Virus record (IMG/VR): IMGVR_UViG_3300025880_000923
Location: 1 to 22,205 of that record
Source of the DNA: a virus
Strand: one strand, 5' to 3'
Length of the DNA: 22,205 nucleotides
In this document: one piece after another, positions 263 through 15,958 of the stretch
Layout: each line of letters opens with the position of its first letter
Position numbering within the stretch: the stretch's first letter is position 1
Notes under the pieces: model-generated
The model's database searches: none
What the model was told of the DNA's origin: nothing
Seen by the model: only the letters and a program-made list of their open reading frames with translations
Made by a program: the position numbers and the translations under genes

Positions 263-826
263 TTATGCTCCTAATAAATTCATGTGTACCACAACTAACT
301 GTGCGTATGCTATGGCATGTGATTTTTTGAATGTATATCCTTCGTCTACATTTTCCCACACACTAGTACTTATTTCTTTAAATGTCTTTCCTATTAAATG
401 TTTCTTGCCTGGTCTCATAACTGCTAAGAACATAGCAAGTCTAGGGATAGAATTAATATCTTCAGGCATCTGTTGTAATGTATCGAATTGTTTTCCCAAG
501 TGAATTAACTGTTCGACAAATGCTTTGTCTTTTAATTTACTCCAATCAGGATCTCCCATTAATTGTACTAAATGCATTTCATTATGTACTCTACTATAGA
601 TGTTCACATTAAGCAAATCAAGTTTAAAGTACCCTCTTGCATCTGCTTCTTTGTAATCTAGTGAACACATGTCATTGATAGGGTCATAGGGTGCCTCTGT
701 GATATAAACGCCCGTAGGGTGCTTTCTAATAGGTTCTACGTTACGCATTGCGGCTGGGATATGATTGATTAAAGCCAGAATTTTATCTCTGTCTCCAAAA
801 TCTATATCAATATCCGAATCTATCAA
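263..826 (-). CDS. Miniature DNA polymerase III alpha (DnaE/PolC)-like palm protein
   Basis: This 187-aa protein is collinear with the catalytic palm of bacterial replicase DnaE, which is more than 1,100 aa long. Seen: DIDIDF at residues 5-10, matching the DFDVDF motif of DnaE that holds two catalytic aspartates (D5, D7 here); KHPTGVYIT at 35-43, like the DnaE KHAGGVVIA segment; YFKLDLL at 66-72, like VKFDFLGL, which carries the third catalytic Asp (D70); LAVMRPG near 134-140; and FKKSHAIAYA at 166-175, like FNKSHSAAYA. The PHP, thumb, beta-binding and OB regions are absent and inserts are trimmed. The start is TTG at 826, overlapping the exonuclease stop by four bases (TTGA), with AGGG eight bases upstream; the next Met would remove the DxD motif. 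Homology is inferred by eye. Whether it polymerises DNA is unknown. Confidence 0.72.
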   Translation of the reverse strand: MIDSDIDIDFGDRDKILALINHIPAAMRNVEPIRKHPTGVYITEAPYDPINDMCSLDYKEADARGYFKLDLLNVNIYSRVHNEMHLVQLMGDPDWSKLKDKAFVEQLIHLGKQFDTLQQMPEDINSIPRLAMFLAVMRPGKKHLIGKTFKEISTSVWENVDEGYTFKKSHAIAYAQLVVVHMNLLGA

Positions 827-1368
827 ACTTGAATCCCTGCTTCTATTAATTTTTTATATCCTCTTTGCACAACGATTGCTTGATGCTCTGCATCTTCTAC
901 AGCCTTGTGTGATGTTACTGCGGCTCCGTCTTTAAGTGAGACATTAGTTAGATCATAGATTGTTCTACAATCTCTTACTGACCAGAAACGCCATGGATTA
1001 GACATGCCTAACTGAGTGAAAGCATTTTCAGCGATAACAACATCAAAAATAGAACCATTAGCCCAAATTGCTCTGCGGTTCCAACAAAATTTGTAGAGTT
1101 GATCCATAGCATCTTTAAATGATACTCTACCCTGGTCGCCCATTGCTTCATTTATTGCATCCTCTGATTGTTTGCCCCACCACTCTAAAGTTTCAGGGTC
1201 AATGTGTCTATCAAACTCTTCTGTTTGTTCATCTATTGTGGGTCTGATTTCTAATCGTTCTACAACACCACTGCCTTTAGGGTCGAATCGTACTGCTCCA
1301 ATTGTTAATATGACACAGTTAGGTTGAGTACTCAACGTCTCCATATCTATCATCACATCATTTGCCAT
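823..1368 (-). CDS. dexA: DEDDh 3'-5' exonuclease, DnaQ/DexA-like
   Basis: A 181-aa RNase H-fold exonuclease expected to remove nucleotides from DNA (or RNA) 3' ends with two metal ions. Exo I is visible as the IDMETL segment (D8, E10) followed by ILTIGAVRFD; Exo II is around GSIFDVV with D109; Exo III is HKAVEDAEHQA at 154-164, giving H154 and D159 of the DEDDh class. T4 DexA is 227 aa, so this is a compact version, close to the RNase T/Rv2179c-like group. ATG at 1368 has GGAG upstream and overlaps the stop of the radical SAM gene by 11 bases. Its stop overlaps the start of the Pol III alpha-like gene, so the pair mimics an epsilon-alpha arrangement. The family is clear; the symbol is by analogy with T4. 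Confidence 0.85.
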   Translation of the reverse strand: MANDVMIDMETLSTQPNCVILTIGAVRFDPKGSGVVERLEIRPTIDEQTEEFDRHIDPETLEWWGKQSEDAINEAMGDQGRVSFKDAMDQLYKFCWNRRAIWANGSIFDVVIAENAFTQLGMSNPWRFWSVRDCRTIYDLTNVSLKDGAAVTSHKAVEDAEHQAIVVQRGYKKLIEAGIQV

Positions 1369-3271
1369 TACTACTCCACACGTTATCTTTTAATTTTACT
1401 TCTTGTATTATATCACTTCTGAGGTAATTAATCAACAGTATTGATCGCTTTTTGGGTAAATGCAAGGGCATTGTTGAATGTAATAAACGAGTATTGTAAA
1501 ACAAAATCGATCCTTTAGGCATGTCATATTGTTCTGCATGTAACTTGAAGTATTCATCATGTACACCCTCATAACAGGCTTGTATGTCCCAATCTGATTG
1601 ATGACTATAAGGTATAACTCCAGTTGCTCCTGTGTCTTTATCTAAGTCATCCAGAGGAATAATAACTTGTACACCATAGACATCATTGTCACTTCTCATA
1701 TTGTACTTTGGAAATCTATGTGGGGTATCTATATGAGGACCGCACCATCGACTGGGTCCATTGATAGTCACAATGTCACTTGCATAAAATTCACAGTCTG
1801 GTAAGTGTACTTTTATCTCAGGGTAGATGATGTCATGTATTGCTTTGACTTCTTTCCAATCATCAGTAAGTTGTGACCACCATACAGCGATACCCTTAGA
1901 CTTTAGTTTTTCACAATCTTTGCCTTCTGCATATTGCTTTTTATGTGTTGACACTCTGACAGGATAGAGTTCATCTTTTCTGTCGTTGATATTGTCTATA
2001 ATTTCAGTAGGAATGATATCACGTACCATGTCAAACCCTTTACCTTCATGTTGTATTTCACTGTTTACACTTCTAAACATATTGTTTTTTAGTTCCTCCG
2101 CTAGTTCCGGAATATAATTATTTAAGTCTCTGTTTCTGTACTCATCTGATCCTGTTATTAATTGATGTAGATTTCTAATTGTCCACACACTAACAGATTG
2201 TGGCTCGACAAGCCATGCATGTAAGATATCAAGTTGATCTACATTAAATGTAGCAATCTTAGATTTTAATTGTTCTACTGCTTCGATGGCTTGTTGTCTA
2301 TATTCAAGTGAAACAACATTAGTCTTACACCAAACAGGTTCTGTTACTCTGTTTAAAAATATTCCAGGACGTACATCACGTGGACAACCATATTCCTCAC
2401 ATAAATCGCTCCACCATTCAATTAGTTTGGGTGACTGTATAATATTGAATATACTAACAGTATGACTTAAGTTTAAACTGTATCTTTCAGGTTCCTTTTT
2501 CTGTAAGTCAAATAACTTTCGTGTATTCTTTTCTATCTTATCCCATTTGAATGGATAACGTATGTAATCGTTTACCTTGCCATAGCCATCGATTGATAAA
2601 CTGATATGCACTCCTTTAAAGTGCGACCAAACGTCAATGAGGTCTTGTGTGATAGAAGTTAGATTAGTCACATATGATAATATTATGTTCTTTGCTCTAT
2701 CTCCTTCAATCAATTGCTTACAGAACAGTTCATGTTCTTCCATGATAGTAGGTTCGCCACCAACAAATGCAATACGTTTTAAATTTGGAAATAAAGTATA
2801 GATATCAAGTGTCTGATCTTTTGTTATGTTTATTTTTAAATGGTTATCTTCTTCAGATTCGATCTTCCATATGGTATTATATTCCTTTCCCCATTGGTCA
2901 GAGGAATAAGGATTACATGTAATACATTTTGAGTTACATTTGTTACTAAAGGTTAAATCTAAGAAGTGAACATCATTAGGATCAACCTCAATGTTCATAG
3001 GAATATCATAGTCTTGTAAAGCAACATTCCATATAGTACGCATAGACGTGCCTGATACTTTTTCAGAGTCTAAACAGTTTTTACAATCACTAGGCCAGTC
3101 GCCTTTTTTAAGTTGTTTTCTTATCTCAATAAGATTGTTATGATTTAAATTATCTGCATATGGTTTTTTTTCTACACCACCTGTATTTACAAGATTACAA
3201 CAAGACTTATACCCGCCACCATCTATTGAGGCTGAGCCAAATGCCAAAGCACAATAGATAGGATCTTTCAT
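1358..3271 (-). CDS. Radical SAM enzyme fused to a 2OG-Fe(II)/phytanoyl-CoA-type dioxygenase
   Basis: A 637-aa two-domain enzyme. The N-terminal part has a twitch-like Cys set (C7, C24-C25, C63, C66), then the radical SAM cluster CNSKCITC (C112, C116, C119) that binds a 4Fe-4S centre, and GGEP at 171-174 for SAM binding. The C-terminal 210 residues look like a 2-oxoglutarate/iron dioxygenase: HID (H513, D515), a GVQVIIPLDD strand, distal H598 in LLHSTMP and R609 in KKRSILLIN. I choose ATG at 3271 because it has GAGGTGG just upstream and forms an ATGA overlap with the preceding gene; an ATG 21 bases further upstream lacks such a site. The substrate is unknown. Both halves keep their metal ligands, so both could be active. 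Peptide or small-molecule modification are possibilities, not conclusions. Confidence 0.85.
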   Translation of the reverse strand: MKDPIYCALAFGSASIDGGGYKSCCNLVNTGGVEKKPYADNLNHNNLIEIRKQLKKGDWPSDCKNCLDSEKVSGTSMRTIWNVALQDYDIPMNIEVDPNDVHFLDLTFSNKCNSKCITCNPYSSDQWGKEYNTIWKIESEEDNHLKINITKDQTLDIYTLFPNLKRIAFVGGEPTIMEEHELFCKQLIEGDRAKNIILSYVTNLTSITQDLIDVWSHFKGVHISLSIDGYGKVNDYIRYPFKWDKIEKNTRKLFDLQKKEPERYSLNLSHTVSIFNIIQSPKLIEWWSDLCEEYGCPRDVRPGIFLNRVTEPVWCKTNVVSLEYRQQAIEAVEQLKSKIATFNVDQLDILHAWLVEPQSVSVWTIRNLHQLITGSDEYRNRDLNNYIPELAEELKNNMFRSVNSEIQHEGKGFDMVRDIIPTEIIDNINDRKDELYPVRVSTHKKQYAEGKDCEKLKSKGIAVWWSQLTDDWKEVKAIHDIIYPEIKVHLPDCEFYASDIVTINGPSRWCGPHIDTPHRFPKYNMRSDNDVYGVQVIIPLDDLDKDTGATGVIPYSHQSDWDIQACYEGVHDEYFKLHAEQYDMPKGSILFYNTRLLHSTMPLHLPKKRSILLINYLRSDIIQEVKLKDNVWSSNGK

Positions 3272-3654
3272 CGCCACCTCGTTTCTAACCACATACGTTC
3301 TTTATCTGTGGCTATATAGATTCTTTTTTGTCTGTGGTCTTCTTCATTAGACCAACACCAATGTTCGTTGAGTTGATTGTGTGTACTGTCATTATATTGT
3401 GCTAGGCTTACGTGGTGAGAGAGTTCATGTATTCTGTCATAATCTTTTAAATCACAACTAGGTCCCCATGTATCCCAACACCAGTCACGTAATTGATTAA
3501 ACTTAATAATCTTTGCTAAATCTGATTGTGCCATTGGCCTGGGAGTGAAACGTTCATACTGTGGTTTGATAATAGTAGTACACATCCATGTGAACATCTC
3601 ATTCCCTTTAAATCGTCCATCTAACTTGTGAAACTGTAAATCTAACTCTTTCAT
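3268..3654 (-). CDS. Conserved-type hypothetical protein, Trp/Cys-rich
   Basis: A 128-aa basic protein that I do not recognise. It is unusually rich in Trp and Cys, with a DWCWDTWGPSCDL segment near residues 57-69 and HWCW near 98-101, and has several His residues in between; a metal-binding or structural role is possible but not shown. There is no signal peptide or membrane segment. ATG at 3654 overlaps the stop of the zinc-finger gene by one base (TAATG), and its own stop overlaps the start of the radical SAM fusion by four bases (ATGA). That coupling on both sides makes it a genuine gene and suggests expression in fixed ratio with its neighbours. Confidence 0.8.
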   Translation of the reverse strand: MKELDLQFHKLDGRFKGNEMFTWMCTTIIKPQYERFTPRPMAQSDLAKIIKFNQLRDWCWDTWGPSCDLKDYDRIHELSHHVSLAQYNDSTHNQLNEHWCWSNEEDHRQKRIYIATDKERMWLETRWR

Positions 3655-4352
3655 TAGAATCCAGCCTGAGACAACAACTCTTTGACTTCTGCAATTCTAT
3701 GTGCATCTCTTTTAAACTTGATAGCCCAACGTTCAGGATCGATGTAATCTAAAACCATTTGCTGTTGTGTTTCATCCATTGATGCTAGAAACCCTAGACC
3801 AGATTCTGATTGATACAGTATCCATGGAGAAACCTTTCCTTTAGATATCTCATAACAAATTCTGTTCACTGGACCATATCGTAAGGCATCTTTGTTTTCT
3901 ATTTTTTCATCACTAGAAATCTTAATCATAGTTTCAATACTACGAGCAATTGCATCTAAAGGATCTTCTTCTCTAAGATACTCAATGATAAACTTAGTGT
4001 AGTTAGTATCACTTATCCATTTGTCAATTTTAATTTGATTTGATAACAACCAATCAGCATATCGACCAATGTTAATTGCATTGACATTTACACAGTAATG
4101 ACCAAACTTAACAAAGGCCAGATAATAACTGCTTTTAATAAAGTCTAAATATGTTTTTTGTTTCTTTGTTGGAGTATGTTTTGCATAGAAATTTATCCAA
4201 GCATGAAATGCAATGCGATTACCTTTTAAATCTTTGTCTTGCCATCTGCGTTTGTTTTCACAGATATGCTTGGCCATTGTAGTTTCTCTTATAAAACTCC
4301 TGCCACAAAAATCGCAACCAAATTCTGATTTAGTTGCCGAGTTCTTTTTCAT
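3654..4352 (-). CDS. Zinc-finger phage protein next to the clamp loader
   Basis: A 232-aa protein with a single zinc finger near the N-terminus: CDFCGRSF, then TMAKHICENK, giving a C-x2-C ... H-x-C ligand set around residues 13-33. The remaining 200 residues are helical-looking and basic, with no motif I can name. I believe similar finger proteins occur in other marine T4-like phages, but I cannot name a function; nucleic-acid or protein binding is the natural guess. I use ATG at 4352 (23-base overlap with the gp62-like gene); a GTG at 4385 would add 11 residues. Position straight after gp62 suggests a link to replication or late transcription. Confidence 0.8.
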   Translation of the reverse strand: MKKNSATKSEFGCDFCGRSFIRETTMAKHICENKRRWQDKDLKGNRIAFHAWINFYAKHTPTKKQKTYLDFIKSSYYLAFVKFGHYCVNVNAINIGRYADWLLSNQIKIDKWISDTNYTKFIIEYLREEDPLDAIARSIETMIKISSDEKIENKDALRYGPVNRICYEISKGKVSPWILYQSESGLGFLASMDETQQQMVLDYIDPERWAIKFKRDAHRIAEVKELLSQAGF

Positions 4353-4917
4353 ATTCTTCGATTTCTGAATCTGTAATAATGTCACTTAGTAATTCCACCT
4401 CATCAAATTTTAAATTAGGATATTTTTCTGCAAGATACATTTTGCGATCATGTTGTTCACAAAATAATTTTGCTATCTCAGTCAGTTCACCTGCTGATAA
4501 TTGTGGATATATCTTTTTATAATAATCCTTTATGTCTTTTGGCTTTGCTTTATCTTTTAGTTTAGCCACGCCCTGCTTGATCTGCGGTATCCAAGCATGA
4601 AACTGTTTGCCTATCCCTGGGCTTGCCGCACATAGCATCAACCATTGTAGTTTAGGATGCTTAGAAACATTCTCATTGAATAGATATTTATTTGCATGAT
4701 GATCAACACTTTGTAAATAATACTGTGCCAATTCTTTTTTGCCTTTAACTACACTAATCCAATTGATCATCATAAAAGGAACAAACTTTCGTTGTTGTTC
4801 AGGAGTTAGTCGATCATAGTAGCCATAGTCTTTTTTGTCGATTGCAGTAATTGCCTCGAACAAGTTGAAGTCTTGCTTTTCAAACTTCTCATCTGTTGGT
4901 GTTTTTGCTCTAGCCAA
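4330..4917 (-). CDS. 62: Clamp-loader small subunit, gp62-like
   Basis: A 195-aa protein resembling gp62 of marine T4-like phages. In T4, one gp62 with four gp44 ATPases loads the gp45 sliding clamp; gp62 itself has no ATPase motif, and none is seen here. The recognisable parts are LFEAITAIDKKDYGYYDRL at the N-terminus, FVPFMMINW, the HANKYLF segment and KHPKLQWLMLCAASPGIGKQ in the middle. I place the start at TTG 4917, five bases after AGAGG; a TTG at 4932 is possible but lacks a site. The start overlaps the stop of the small membrane gene by eight bases. No gp44 of the usual WVEKYRP type is in the window. The gp62 call rests on remembered family patterns. Confidence 0.72.
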   Translation of the reverse strand: MARAKTPTDEKFEKQDFNLFEAITAIDKKDYGYYDRLTPEQQRKFVPFMMINWISVVKGKKELAQYYLQSVDHHANKYLFNENVSKHPKLQWLMLCAASPGIGKQFHAWIPQIKQGVAKLKDKAKPKDIKDYYKKIYPQLSAGELTEIAKLFCEQHDRKMYLAEKYPNLKFDEVELLSDIITDSEIEEYEKELGN

Positions 4918-5065
4918 AGTAACCTCTCGCAAACCATCCTATTGCCGCAAAGATAGGACCTATTATAAACAAATCAACTATCCAGTGCAATGCAATAGAT
5001 AGTGTGACTATTTCTTTCCAATGTAATCTACATACATTCTTCCAATGATCAAAACGCTTGTGCAT
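4910..5065 (-). CDS. Small membrane protein, 51 aa
   Basis: A 51-codon frame fills what would otherwise be a 130-base gap. It starts at ATG 5065, inside the end of the 166-aa gene (17-base overlap), and ends with TAG at 4910-4912, overlapping the gp62 start by eight bases. The protein has a basic, aromatic N-terminus (MHKRFDHWKN) and a hydrophobic stretch from about residue 19 to 45, including LHWIVDLFIIGPIF, then a short RGYFG tail. One, perhaps two, membrane passes are expected. No strong ribosome binding site is seen, so translational coupling to the upstream gene is likely. Function unknown. Confidence 0.6.
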   Translation of the reverse strand: MHKRFDHWKNVCRLHWKEIVTLSIALHWIVDLFIIGPIFAAIGWFARGYFG

Positions 5066-5549
5066 AGTCTACGATTTCACAATTACGACTGATCTCTTTA
5101 ACAAAGTAAACACATCTAGGCTTTGGACCATCTTCGATAGGGACACATAAGAATTGTCCGTTACGTAGTCTAGGCGCATACCATGTTACGTCTGAATAGA
5201 TATCAACAATTTCAATATCTAAAAAACTAGGCGAGAATGATGTTAGTGGATTGAATGCAAACACTGTAAAACCTCTGTCGTTCAAACTAGACAATGGAAT
5301 AGTCTCTAAGTCACCATGTTCTTCATGCCCAATTAATACTTGCCAATCAACAGGCATCTTAATTGTTTTGTTTCCTATTTCTAATACAACCGCGGGTGCA
5401 TTGAATGACTCTAAAAAGATGAGTGGAATGTAATGATAGTCTACATTCAGAGGGTTAGAGTTATCTAAGATAGCAAATCGTAAATCATCTACCTCATCTG
5501 GTAGTGTTTCTAAATCGTATGCCTGGTTGTCTAGTGTTAATATTTTCAT
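5049..5549 (-). CDS. Conserved hypothetical phage protein
   Basis: A 166-aa acidic soluble protein of mainly beta character. Segments such as MPVDWQVLIGHEEHGDLE, LNDRGFTVFAFNPLTS and IEDGPKPRCVYFVKE resemble a protein I have seen next to replication genes of cyanophages and other marine T4-like phages, but I know of no assigned function. ATG at 5549 is preceded by a sigma70-type promoter whose -10 ends six bases before the start codon, and by GAGGAG 13 bases upstream, so it probably begins its own transcription unit as well as receiving readthrough from uvsW. It leads the group 51-aa protein, gp62, zinc finger. Confidence 0.8.
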   Translation of the reverse strand: MKILTLDNQAYDLETLPDEVDDLRFAILDNSNPLNVDYHYIPLIFLESFNAPAVVLEIGNKTIKMPVDWQVLIGHEEHGDLETIPLSSLNDRGFTVFAFNPLTSFSPSFLDIEIVDIYSDVTWYAPRLRNGQFLCVPIEDGPKPRCVYFVKEISRNCEIVDYAQAF

Positions 5550-5598: not shown

Positions 5599-7056
5599 TC
5601 AATATTTTAATTTTTCTATTGCAAACGGATAGTTTGCTTCTTTGTAAAATGCCTTACGAGAAGTTAAATGTCGTTTAGCAAATCTGCATGAACTTGTTAA
5701 GTCCCAGATTTGAACAAAGTCTTTATCGTCTGCTTTACGAATGCCACGACCGATAGACTGTATGACACGAACAAAACTTTTACCTGGTTCAATGAGTACA
5801 AGATTAAAAATCCTAGGAATGTTAATACCAGTACTAGCCACGCCATAAGTAGCAATGATAACTTTATTAGTAGCAGTGGATACCTCATCATATTCTTCTT
5901 TTCTGTCATTGACTTTCATGCCTCCTGATACAAATACTGCATCATCTAGTCGTTCTACAAGTGCATGTCCTGCATTGATACGATCAACCAAGACAAGTGT
6001 ATTACCTGTTTCTTTTATTTTATCTACTAACTCTGCCAACTTATCTAATCGTTTAGAATCTGAGAGTAAGTGTTTTAGTTCTGCTTGATAATTACTAAAC
6101 TCTTGGTCGTCTTGTAATTGTACAATGTTCACATGACATTTACTTAAGACACCTTGATCTTGTAATTCTTTTGCAGATAGTTTATTAGTGACTGGACCTA
6201 AACTTACTTCCAATGCCATTCTTTCATATTCTGCTTTGGGAACAGTACCAGTCAGTCCCCATCGTATGGGAACATGTGACATGACGCCTGTTAACAGTGC
6301 CTTCAATGCATCTGCTTTAGCCATGTGTACTTCATCTACCATTACGCAAACAACACCTTCAATGAATTCATCGATAGTGCAGTCGGCCTCTCCTCTCTTG
6401 GTATTTTTTAAAAGGATGTTCAAGGATTGCCATGTGCAAATTGTATGTTGCTTAAAGTATTCTTTACGATCACCGTAATAAACACCAACATCTAATCCTA
6501 GATTTATGTAATCTTCTTCGGTTTGTGTGACGAGACTTTTGTTAGGAACGATAACGATACTACGACCATAGAACTCTATGCTCTTACTCAGAGCGGCTGT
6601 CATAATCGTTTTACCTGCCCCTGTAGCGACCTCTTGTATCGACTGAGGGTTTGCTAAGAACTGATTGATAACTTCTACTTGATAGTCTCTCAGTTCGATG
6701 GATTGTCCTTCGCAGACATGTCCTGTGGGCCACTTAACATCTTCAAATGTGTTAGTGGTAATTTCATCAAAATCAAATGTGTTATTGTATTCCCTCATAT
6801 CTTCTAACTCAATCGTGTAATTGAGTTCTTCCAAGATAGGAATAATTTGAGGTAATAAATTAATAAATGTGGAACCAGCAAGGCTACAATAACTAACCTT
6901 GCCGTTCCATCTACCTAGTTTAACACTGGGCATGTAACGTGCACCAGGAACCTCATACTCAAACTTTTTCATCAGTGCCCTACGAGCATCTAATTCAAGT
7001 CCGGCAATCTTTAGATTGACTTCATCTTTAATTTGTAGTGTTGCAGTTCCTGGCAT
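5599..7056 (-). CDS. uvsW: UvsW DNA/RNA helicase
   Basis: A 485-aa superfamily 2 helicase that in T4 unwinds R-loops, branch-migrates Holliday junctions and shifts origin replication to recombination-dependent replication. Seen: an N-terminal accessory domain (about 1-110), the Q-tip LRDYQ at 122-126, Walker A ATGAGKT at 144-150, DEVH at 241-244, GLTGT at 267-271, the second RecA lobe with VLVDR near 355-359, and motif VI QSIGRGIRK at 433-441. Length fits T4 UvsW (503 aa). ATG at 7056 lies four bases after the receptor gene's stop; only a weak AGG is seen upstream, so translation may depend on coupling. All catalytic motifs are intact. Confidence 0.95.
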   Translation of the reverse strand: MPGTATLQIKDEVNLKIAGLELDARRALMKKFEYEVPGARYMPSVKLGRWNGKVSYCSLAGSTFINLLPQIIPILEELNYTIELEDMREYNNTFDFDEITTNTFEDVKWPTGHVCEGQSIELRDYQVEVINQFLANPQSIQEVATGAGKTIMTAALSKSIEFYGRSIVIVPNKSLVTQTEEDYINLGLDVGVYYGDRKEYFKQHTICTWQSLNILLKNTKRGEADCTIDEFIEGVVCVMVDEVHMAKADALKALLTGVMSHVPIRWGLTGTVPKAEYERMALEVSLGPVTNKLSAKELQDQGVLSKCHVNIVQLQDDQEFSNYQAELKHLLSDSKRLDKLAELVDKIKETGNTLVLVDRINAGHALVERLDDAVFVSGGMKVNDRKEEYDEVSTATNKVIIATYGVASTGINIPRIFNLVLIEPGKSFVRVIQSIGRGIRKADDKDFVQIWDLTSSCRFAKRHLTSRKAFYKEANYPFAIEKLKY

Positions 7057-7060
7057 TCGA

Positions 7061-8614
7061 TTACGGCCTGTATTGTAGTGTTATAAAGAATTCAATACCA
7101 CCTGAGTTATATCCAGGGTTGAATTCAAATCTTCTATCTAGTATATCTCTTACTGTAGCAGATAGCAAGTAGTTAGGTGCAATTTCTGATTCGATCTTGT
7201 AATCGATTGAACTTACATCATCAAGCATTTCTGTTCCATCATACGGTCCAGGCTTTCTATCGAATAGTCCAGTGTATGTGAATGACAATACATAGTTGTC
7301 TACATAAGATACAGATGATATGATTGCTTTATACTTTGCAACTCTAGGTTGATCTGAGTTAGTATAGCCAAACTCATAACCAAAGTCTGTGTCCATCCAA
7401 TCAACACCTTTTGTTCCAGTCAGTCTCACACCTTCAGTATCATATTTGCCAGTGTTAACAAACTGTGATGATGCAAAACTATAGTCGATGCCTTCTGAAA
7501 ATTTGTATTTAAATACAGTTATATTTTTATAACCAAATTCAACACCTGTTGCTTCCTCAGGGTCTAGTCCAGGATTAGGTGCAGTCCATGCATCACCATT
7601 TAACTCATATAGAGTTGGGTTACGATATGATGTACCGAAACTTGAAAAGAAATCTCCCTTTGATGATCCAATACGATAAACAAATGCATCTTCACTTAAA
7701 CGTAGACCTATGTTAATAGGCTCGTAGTTCAGCAATGCATACACAGAGATAGAGTCTTGCGACATACCTTCATACTTTTCATATTCAACTGTTGCACCAT
7801 AGAGATTGTTACCAACTGTGTGCCTTGTATCTACAAATGCTCTTTCAGCATCTGAAGAATAAGTTTCTACGCCTTCAGTTTTATATTTTGCATCGTTAAA
7901 AGAATAACCAAACGTGTAGTTATCATTTCTTACTGATAAACTTCCTTTTGAACCTAACTGAGAACAATCATTTGATTGTGAGAAACTTGCGGTATAACAG
8001 TTGTCATAGTCATAGTCATATGATGTTGCTGAAATGTTCGTAGTGAACTCGCCTGTATCAAATTGACCTCTAGCAGTCATGTTTGTGTAGCCGTCAGTCT
8101 CATCATTGTCTGATCTAACACTATCATTGTTAACATCAAAGTATGTAAAGTTTAAACCTTTACCTGTGTGTGTAACGAATGTATGTTGAGGTCCTAGTCT
8201 TAAAGTAGATTGATCTTTTGAAAGATCGTCTTTAATAAAGACTGTTCCACCTAAACTACCTGAACCATATAGTACACTGTTGACTCCGTTAACAACTTTA
8301 ATTGTTTCGTTTCCTGTTGCAAAATCATGTCCAAAGTCATACCATCCAGAGCCTGCATCATTTGCTGGAACTCCATTTCTGTATACACTTGTATGTACTG
8401 TTTGTGTTCCTCTTTCTGTGTAACCAGAAAAAGAACCATAACCACCTGCTTGAGTTGCTTCGGGTATAATTGTTTCTAATATATTAACGTCAGTCGAAGG
8501 GTCCGACTCTGCTTCATATGTTGTAGTTCCTACTACAACGATTTCTTCTATTTCTTGTGCATATACTGCTGTTGTTAAACACAACGATAATGCCAATGCT
8601 ATTTTATTTTTCAT
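7061..8614 (-). CDS. TonB-dependent outer-membrane receptor (BtuB/FepA-type)
   Basis: A 517-aa secreted outer-membrane transporter. Residues 1-19 form a signal peptide ending VYA, cleavage before QEIEE. EEIVVVG at 23-29 is a TonB box, followed by a plug of about 110 residues with the typical VYRNGVPAND, VVNGVNSVLYGSGSLGGTVFI pattern. From about 131 on, alternating aromatic/polar strands with short acidic loops look like a barrel; the last strand GIEFFITLQYRP resembles a BAM signal. The barrel (near 390 residues) is shorter than that of BtuB (about 460), so loops are trimmed. No STN domain is present. ATG overlaps the preceding stop by four bases (ATGA), and uvsW follows four bases later, so it is embedded in a core replication operon. 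Ligand unknown; cobalamin or siderophore uptake, or blocking of rival phages, are guesses. Confidence 0.9.
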   Translation of the reverse strand: MKNKIALALSLCLTTAVYAQEIEEIVVVGTTTYEAESDPSTDVNILETIIPEATQAGGYGSFSGYTERGTQTVHTSVYRNGVPANDAGSGWYDFGHDFATGNETIKVVNGVNSVLYGSGSLGGTVFIKDDLSKDQSTLRLGPQHTFVTHTGKGLNFTYFDVNNDSVRSDNDETDGYTNMTARGQFDTGEFTTNISATSYDYDYDNCYTASFSQSNDCSQLGSKGSLSVRNDNYTFGYSFNDAKYKTEGVETYSSDAERAFVDTRHTVGNNLYGATVEYEKYEGMSQDSISVYALLNYEPINIGLRLSEDAFVYRIGSSKGDFFSSFGTSYRNPTLYELNGDAWTAPNPGLDPEEATGVEFGYKNITVFKYKFSEGIDYSFASSQFVNTGKYDTEGVRLTGTKGVDWMDTDFGYEFGYTNSDQPRVAKYKAIISSVSYVDNYVLSFTYTGLFDRKPGPYDGTEMLDDVSSIDYKIESEIAPNYLLSATVRDILDRRFEFNPGYNSGGIEFFITLQYRP

Positions 8615-15292: not shown

Positions 15293-15958
15293 CTATTGGT
15301 TATATAATTTAATATCTTCGGCATAATATGCCTTAATTTGTTCCATGTATCTTGGATTCGTTTGTATCTCAAAATGTATTCTGTGTTTAGTAAAATACTG
15401 AGCATTTTGTCCTGCGTCATTCTCCATTAATTTAAAAGGGATTATATTACTTTTACTTAAATCTAATTCTAACTCAGTCTCTAAAAAGTCTATGACTTTA
15501 TTTTGAAAATTTGAGAGTCTATTTGTATTGGTAAGGTAACTATCCATTTTAAAAAATACACAATCATCAGTATTTATTCCCTCTAAGAATTTAACCTGAG
15601 GAACTGTGTGCCAATCAAAATGTACTTGACTGAACAATAAATCTAATACGTTTCTATCTTTTAAGTCCCTGAGTACTTCTTCGCCATGTAGATATTGAGT
15701 AATCCCTGAACACCAACGATCAATTGGATCTCGTAATATAACTATATACTTTTTTGAATTCAGGGAAGAAACATTTGTAAAGTTTATTTGACTTGAAGAT
15801 GATTCTAACACATCTTCCATCCATTTAGATGCGTTTTTTGCAATCATAATATATGCATAGTCTGTGCCAACAATATTTAACACAAGGCCTGGCTGACGTT
15901 GGATTCTATTTTTCAACTGATTAATTGCTAACTTTGAACCACTGTCCAGGATCGTCAA
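15293..15958 (-). CDS. Sulfotransferase-family protein
   Basis: Up to 221 aa. Family signs are IAKNASKWMED at 39-49, like the 5'-phosphosulfate loop of the Sulfotransfer_2/carbohydrate sulfotransferase group, and VILRDPIDRWCSG at 73-85, the 3'-phosphate-binding RDPxxR..S motif. Such enzymes move sulfate from PAPS to a sugar, lipid or protein; the acceptor here is unknown. The start is uncertain: TTG 15958 overlaps the peptidase gene by 38 bases, while TTG 15916, just after that gene's stop, would give 207 aa and keep both motifs. Neither has a clear ribosome binding site. Modification of host surface glycans or a virion protein would fit its place among secreted and envelope proteins. Confidence 0.75.
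   Translation of the reverse strand: MTILDSGSKLAINQLKNRIQRQPGLVLNIVGTDYAYIMIAKNASKWMEDVLESSSSQINFTNVSSLNSKKYIVILRDPIDRWCSGITQYLHGEEVLRDLKDRNVLDLLFSQVHFDWHTVPQVKFLEGINTDDCVFFKMDSYLTNTNRLSNFQNKVIDFLETELELDLSKSNIIPFKLMENDAGQNAQYFTKHRIHFEIQTNPRYMEQIKAYYAEDIKLYNQ

Follow-up and report, generated by a model that had tools for sequence, protein, structure and literature searches.

The 187-aa protein encoded near one end of the IMG/VR virus record IMGVR_UViG_3300025880_000923 is the C-terminal half of a C-family DNA polymerase palm that is split between two genes, and not a whole miniature palm. The stretch analysed here (positions 1 to 22,205 of that record; 22,205 bases) is called "the window" below, and the two parts of the split protein are called the N-half and the C-half. 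This split polymerase family is already in print, and the window contains a further member of it with a clade-specific exonuclease: the passage of Iyer et al. 2021 on jumbo phages (PMC7824862) describes a two-piece minimal Pol III α subunit beside a family B polymerase. By that description the window family is their group 2.2 jumbo-phage split α, whose two pieces correspond to PHROGs 11127 (N-half) and 11778 (C-half) here. The family as described there has a C-terminal Mg-binding protein, a separate N-terminal protein that binds NTP and a family B replicase; the window ORF is such a C-terminal protein, with the Mg-binding aspartates of the C-family palm, and the other two features are found in its relatives, where the N-terminal protein is encoded far from the C-half (below). 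Literature searches noticed no experimental test of the split enzyme, and Iyer et al. is the description of the split pair that they returned.

Most genes of the window lie on its minus strand, among them a T4-superfamily set consisting of the terminase large subunit, SSB, UvsX, UvsY and a UvsW-type helicase (the name UvsW for the last is our own reading). The helicase is followed, in order, by the genes of PHROGs 11279, 11758 and 11058, a 128-aa ORF, a radical-SAM/PhyH protein, the exonuclease and the polymerase half (Table 1). The radical-SAM/PhyH protein in this replication gene block (1358–3292, minus strand) has 644 amino acids and combines a radical SAM with a PhyH-type dioxygenase domain. 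Two other minus-strand genes of the window deserve mention. A 517-aa protein with a signal-peptide-like start (7061–8614), whose sole PHROG match is 5687 (unknown function), reads to us as a TonB-dependent outer-membrane receptor, an unusual cargo for a phage; and a 221-aa protein (15293–15958), for which there was no PHROG match, looks sulfotransferase-like to us from its RDPIDRWCSG string. No PHROG match to a family B polymerase was found among the window ORFs scanned.

Table 1. Polymerase half, exonuclease and conserved gene block of the window
Feature	Position	Strand	Profile match
C-terminal (Mg2+-binding) half of split C-family DNA polymerase, 187 aa	263..826	-	PHROG 11778 E 1.9e-51
DEDDh 3'-5' exonuclease, DexA/Rv2179c-like family, 181 aa	823..1368	-	PF16473 E 5.3e-37; PHROG 255 exonuclease E 6.6e-46
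243-aa protein, N-terminal C2H2/C2HC-type zinc finger	3654..4385	-	PHROG 11058 E 3.7e-57
200-aa protein, member of conserved block	4330..4932	-	PHROG 11758 E 1.2e-14
166-aa protein, member of conserved block	5049..5549	-	PHROG 11279 E 1.8e-46
DNA helicase, UvsW-like, heads block	5599..7056	-	PHROG 16 DNA helicase E 4.6e-82

The C-half frame begins with a TTG (826–824) that overlaps the TGA (825–823) of the exonuclease ORF, as a sequence-only reading of the window had noted, and an AGGGA stretch lies upstream of this TTG. Its motifs DIDID, KHPTG, FKLDLL, RPG and FKKSHAIAYA follow one another in the order known from DnaE, and the key residues are D5/D7/D9, H36, K68/D70, R138 and F166–H170; the same reading had both the motif order and the numbering of D5, D7 and D70 right. 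PHROG 11778, which matches the ORF, is labelled 'DNA polymerase'. A Pfam search with the C-half gave nothing, and NCBIfam and the PDB sequences (the latter by phmmer and profile searches) gave chance matches only. Relatives are encoded in 63 of 50,697 phage records by tblastn (31–44% identity in the 60 of 63 listed), and these phages include RaK2-, GAP32-, 121Q/PBECO4-, PA5oct-, Atu_ph07- and SCTP-2-like phages as well as two 141-kb Alishewanella phages. At least 599 stretches in IMG/VR encode C-half relatives, and a Salicola-phage query found none there. There are also 14 matches among genome_contigs, every one in a record titled MAG and with the same neighbour genes, which we read as binned phage contigs rather than as genes of cellular origin. 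One C-half relative (L075:4126-4700) is split into two overlapping frames, by a sequencing error or as a decaying copy.

The likeness of the C-half motifs to those of C-family polymerases exceeds chance. The family profile scores 8.3 bits against E. coli DnaE, spread over three weak pieces that are collinear (402–420, 616–641 and 742–767), two of which are negligible individually, and none of 1000 shuffled DnaE sequences reached 8.3 bits. An AF2 model of the C-half made from 63 sequences has a pLDDT of 94.4, and its first 11 Foldseek matches are all Pol III α chains, with weak E-values of 2.7e-3 (best) to 1.1. On VIA re-alignment the model gives Z scores of 9.3 with PolC (3f2c), 9.2 with Taq α (3e0d) and 8.4 with E. 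coli α (2hnh, 178 residues). The 13 best VIA entries are all DNA polymerases (Z 5.9–9.3, with essentially the whole model covered), the next entry has Z 3.4, and the C-family palm match predicted from the sequence is thus borne out in structure. Eleven of the 13 are identified as Pol III α or PolC by title or by the N-half PDB profile search; the other two, 9qrn and 9qrl, have no more than 'DNA polymerase' as their title, and their aligned range is the same as that of PolC. The aligned ends of the model lie at 399–777 in E. coli α, 459–834 in Taq and 969–1292 in PolC. Aligned by sequence register, D5, D7 and D70 match the catalytic residues D401, D403 and D555 of E. coli α, and K68 matches K553. 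Descent of the C-half from a C-family palm is thus supported.

What the C-half shares with DnaE and PolC is the palm fold, the DxD pair and third Asp, the KxD strand, and the RPG and F-KSH-A-Y motifs in order; it differs from them in having no PHP, thumb, β-binding, OB or τ-binding parts, and its palm is divided between two genes. Its 187 residues align only within 399–777 of E. coli α, in agreement with the earlier observation that PHP, thumb, β-binding and OB regions are gone. The DxDxD motif and the histidine are 27 residues apart (D9 to H36), compared with 106 in E. coli; the C-half therefore has no thumb, and it also lacks much of the fingers of the 399–777 region. The cellular enzymes carry PHP, palm, thumb, fingers and β-binding regions in one chain, and the C-half is no such protein.

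The C-half starts with the DxD strand of the palm; the GS strand that comes before it is missing. The sequence-only reading had seen in it a self-contained miniature palm and possible minimal polymerase; this is not supported, as the nucleotide-binding GS half is encoded by another gene. That gene was traced via gp316 of phage Atu_ph07, which a passage of PMC6102473 names as a Pol III α subunit, to PHROG 11127. PF07733 matches Atu_ph07 gp316 at 4.6e-9, and the N-half profile matches residues 321–392 of E. coli DnaE, at the GS motif, with 27.6 bits, a score reached by none of 1000 shuffles. Against the PDB the same profile finds nine Pol III α sequences (E 0.0018–0.009) and one chance match. 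In a model of a related N-half (pLDDT 89.5) the C-terminal residues, about 95 of them, align with E. coli 279–393 (Z 10.2 with 2hnh and 11.2 with 4jom), and no structural match was found for the first 65 or so. Since the N-half aligns to 279–393 and the C-half to 399–777, the two pieces abut between 393 and 399, just before the DxD. An in-frame stop precedes the DxD of the C-half by a median of 11 codons (maximum 49; at most 30 in 227 of 236 cases), and the GS motif of E. coli lies 38 residues ahead of the DxD, so that a GS strand fused to the C-half ORFs is generally excluded. The window clade differs from the split α of Iyer et al. in having a DexA-type exonuclease upstream of the C-half, and from their jumbo-phage setting in that the pair of halves is also found in the complete circular 141-kb phage Slicko01 and is hence not confined to jumbo phages.

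Residues D5, D7, D9, H36, G39, K68 and D70 are identical in all 242 C-half homologues fetched, many of which are near-identical. R138, P139 and K141 are kept in 239 of them (3 gaps) and H170 and Y174 in 238 (4 gaps), and S169 is variable (183 S, 38 A, 17 P and 4 gaps). The same residues are invariant in the 63 rows that are left when the set is thinned at about 80% identity. The dN/dS ratio of the window C-half is 0.113–0.126 against three relatives with 82–88% identity, 0.19 at 98% and 0.14 at 73% (values for five relatives, a sixth not being computable). By these comparisons the C-half looks like an enzyme under purifying selection and not a decaying remnant.

The two halves largely occur together in annotated phages: of the 60 C-half phage records listed, 58 reappear in the list of 60 N-half records (the best 60 of 63 and of 123, respectively, the 123 including other polymerases). 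The Slicko01 N-half was found by a profile whose query included the Slicko01 sequence. ORF and profile searches found no N-half in the 22-kb window or in a 44-kb contig with a 99% identical C-half, both of which are fragments, and one is present on the 89- and 92-kb contigs of relatives with 73% and 71% identical C-halves. Nineteen C-half records are 80 kb or longer (18 IMG/VR contigs and Slicko01), and the N-half is found in 14 of them, three of which look like a single phage; overall it is found in 6 of 45 and 9 of 15 C-half contigs in two sets, most of the others being short. In the reverse direction the C-half is present in 12 of 25 N-half contigs, and one of the 13 without it is 359 kb long. 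Deeper profiles run on contigs lacking a partner recovered the N-half in 0 of 11 (including the five of at least 80 kb) and the C-half in 0 of 13, records that are probably fragments. A family B polymerase is encoded in 25 of the 34 records that have both halves; every one of the 20 records of 200 kb or more has it, and the nine without it are all below 181 kb. The T4-like setting proposed earlier is supported, the family B polymerase being found in the relatives. A marine jumbo phage survey (PMC9123017) gives the frequency of PF07733 within one genome cluster as 51.9%, and this count may partly represent the split N-half. One contig (G054) encodes, near 54.9 kb (L269:1893-3563), a 557-aa PHP-less single-chain DnaE (PF07733 E 1.3e-42, PF17657 E 1.4e-16) in addition to a family B polymerase (50.8–52.2 kb) and both split halves, so that there are possibly three polymerases in one phage.

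Replication genes lie near both halves. In five cases (Atu_ph07, SCTP-2, Paride, PBECO4 and the 92-kb contig) the clamp loader gene follows the N-half gene at a distance of a few genes; no clamp loader is near it in the Phosso or Vibrio stretches shown, and in Slicko01 an annotated RFC-like gene is near the C-half and not the N-half. Primase and/or gp41-type helicase genes follow closely after the C-half in six phages. Of the 151 loci with 3 kb of upstream sequence, 134 have the PHROG 11058 zinc-finger gene upstream of the C-half (by group 47/53, 42/50, 2/3, 28/28, 5/6 and 10/11), although the two touch in only 7 of the 151. Among the cultured relatives examined this gene is a commoner C-half neighbour than the exonuclease; near the Slicko01 C-half it was not detected. 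PHROG 11758 is upstream in 133 and PHROG 11279 in 101 of these 151 loci. The zinc ligands C24, C27, H40 and C42 of the PHROG 11058 protein are invariant in 12 of 12 aligned sequences, and among the best 60 of 173 PDB matches to its profile are zinc fingers and weak chance matches; a PDB search with the PHROG 11758 profile gave no usable match. PHROGs 11058 and 11758 for the most part have their gene order in common with the split polymerase, and the distribution of 11058 among phage records is nearly the same as that of the polymerase half (61 records as compared with 63). From gene order and distribution, the PHROG 11058 and PHROG 11758 proteins may be polymerase subunits.

The exonuclease matches residues 1–174 of the 177 of PF16473, which places it in the DexA/Rv2179c-like family, and has the DEDDh motif strings IDMET, FDVVI and HKAVED. 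It matches PDB entry 8KEL, which is T4 DexA according to the data statement of PMC12153337, at E 7e-05; it is a related DEDDh exonuclease, although the window product has 181 amino acids as against 227 and is encoded directly before the polymerase half. With the Pol III ε subunit (DnaQ) it shares the DEDDh superfamily, but NCBIfam PRK06310 matches it only at E 0.027 (13.8 bits, where the cut-off is 236), far from the level of an ε equivalog, and the PHP docking partner is absent. Identification as ε was rejected on account of this weak match and the closer one to DexA. Of the pairing claimed earlier, a DEDDh exonuclease next to the polymerase half, the nuclease class and the adjacency in the window clade stand, and the DnaQ-like assignment does not. 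Of the 122 window-clade loci with at least 1 kb upstream, 117 (among them the window) have a same-strand exonuclease gene ahead of the C-half, which it adjoins directly in 82; none was seen upstream in the other five. Many of these loci are near-duplicates, and the remaining 30 of the 152 loci had too short an upstream sequence. Outside the clade no exonuclease is beside the C-half in seven hits from six cultured phages, 50 PBECO4-like loci or three Slicko-like loci, and it is missing in 10 of 12 loci with 1.5-kb flanks. Distant C-half loci such as L258-L267 (1.5-kb flanks) have none upstream. The adjacency thus looks like a clade trait, and the gene is best read as a DexA-type exonuclease gene which, in one clade, has the zinc-finger gene on one side and the C-half on the other; a proofreading role is at most a possibility.

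We consider it probable that the window ORF is the C-terminal subunit of an accessory polymerase, a stripped C-family (Pol III α) enzyme made of two chains. This reading rests on homology, fold, the complementarity of the pieces, their co-occurrence in annotated phages, the conservation of catalytic residues and the proximity of replication genes. The C-half would supply the three aspartates that bind metal, the KxD strand and what is left of the fingers (the RPG and KSH regions), and the PHROG 11127 protein, made from another locus, would supply the preceding part of the palm with its GxGRGSS nucleotide-binding motif. The two would have to associate to give one complete Pol β-fold palm. Alongside the family B replicase, the assembled palm would most likely be an accessory DNA polymerase used in gap filling, repair or recombination-coupled synthesis. 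We infer that the chains assemble physically and are catalytic, that DNA is their substrate, that they have a role at the fork, and that the window's own phage has an N-half.

Loss of the thumb and of most template-holding parts (187 residues stand for E. coli 399–777), together with invariance of the residues needed for the chemistry, could also mean that the reassembled Pol β-fold enzyme is not a polymerase but a nucleotidyltransferase whose acceptor is an RNA end, a protein or a small molecule and not a primed DNA template. We regard this as rather unlikely, as the RPG and KSH finger regions are retained, though S169 varies, and replication genes are near both halves. A polymerase that works from the C-half without any N-half could be argued from the five C-half contigs of at least 80 kb that show none, but such an enzyme would have no GS strand of the Pol β fold, and the N-half is found in nearly all listed C-half phage records and in Slicko01; we think it very improbable. 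Even less credence can be given to the earlier suggestion of a catalytically dead decoy that binds host Pol III partners. The small size and the loss of most domains would suit it, but the partner-binding regions of α (β-clamp, τ and PHP) are among the missing parts, and D5, D7, D9, H36, K68 and D70 are the same in all 242 homologues; such constancy of the metal- and nucleotide-site residues makes a decoy unlikely.

The two-chain accessory polymerase is partly compatible with the other earlier proposal, a stripped ε–α core in which the DEDDh exonuclease is a dedicated, co-translated proofreader. The stop/start overlap in the window and the frequent clade adjacency are in its favour, as is the pair of α (gp316) and ε (gp671) that PMC6102473 suggests for Atu_ph07, although those two genes are far apart. 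However, the exonuclease is DexA-type, is not beside the C-half in the cultured-phage (0/7) or PBECO4-like (0/50) loci, and was not seen upstream in five clade loci. In Pol III, ε docks on the PHP domain of α, and this binding site is absent here. As a whole we find the proposal distinctly unlikely. A wider scheme can be offered as a tentative conjecture, with perhaps a slender chance of being correct: a replisome of two polymerases, one of family B and one a two-chain C-family enzyme whose palm forms only once its separately encoded halves come together, in which the PHROG 11058 protein might replace the lost DNA-binding domains and the DexA-type exonuclease of the clade might act as a detachable proofreader.

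Bacteria replicate their DNA with C-family polymerases, which are otherwise large chains. A palm in two pieces that keeps its catalytic residues across many phages would show what a replicase minimally needs, and the split system can be tested in ordinary E. coli phages of the 121Q/PBECO4 type. To this the window's relatives add the occurrence of the pair beyond jumbo phages and a map of the α parts that remain, and the conserved zinc-finger neighbour (PHROG 11058) is a candidate third component.
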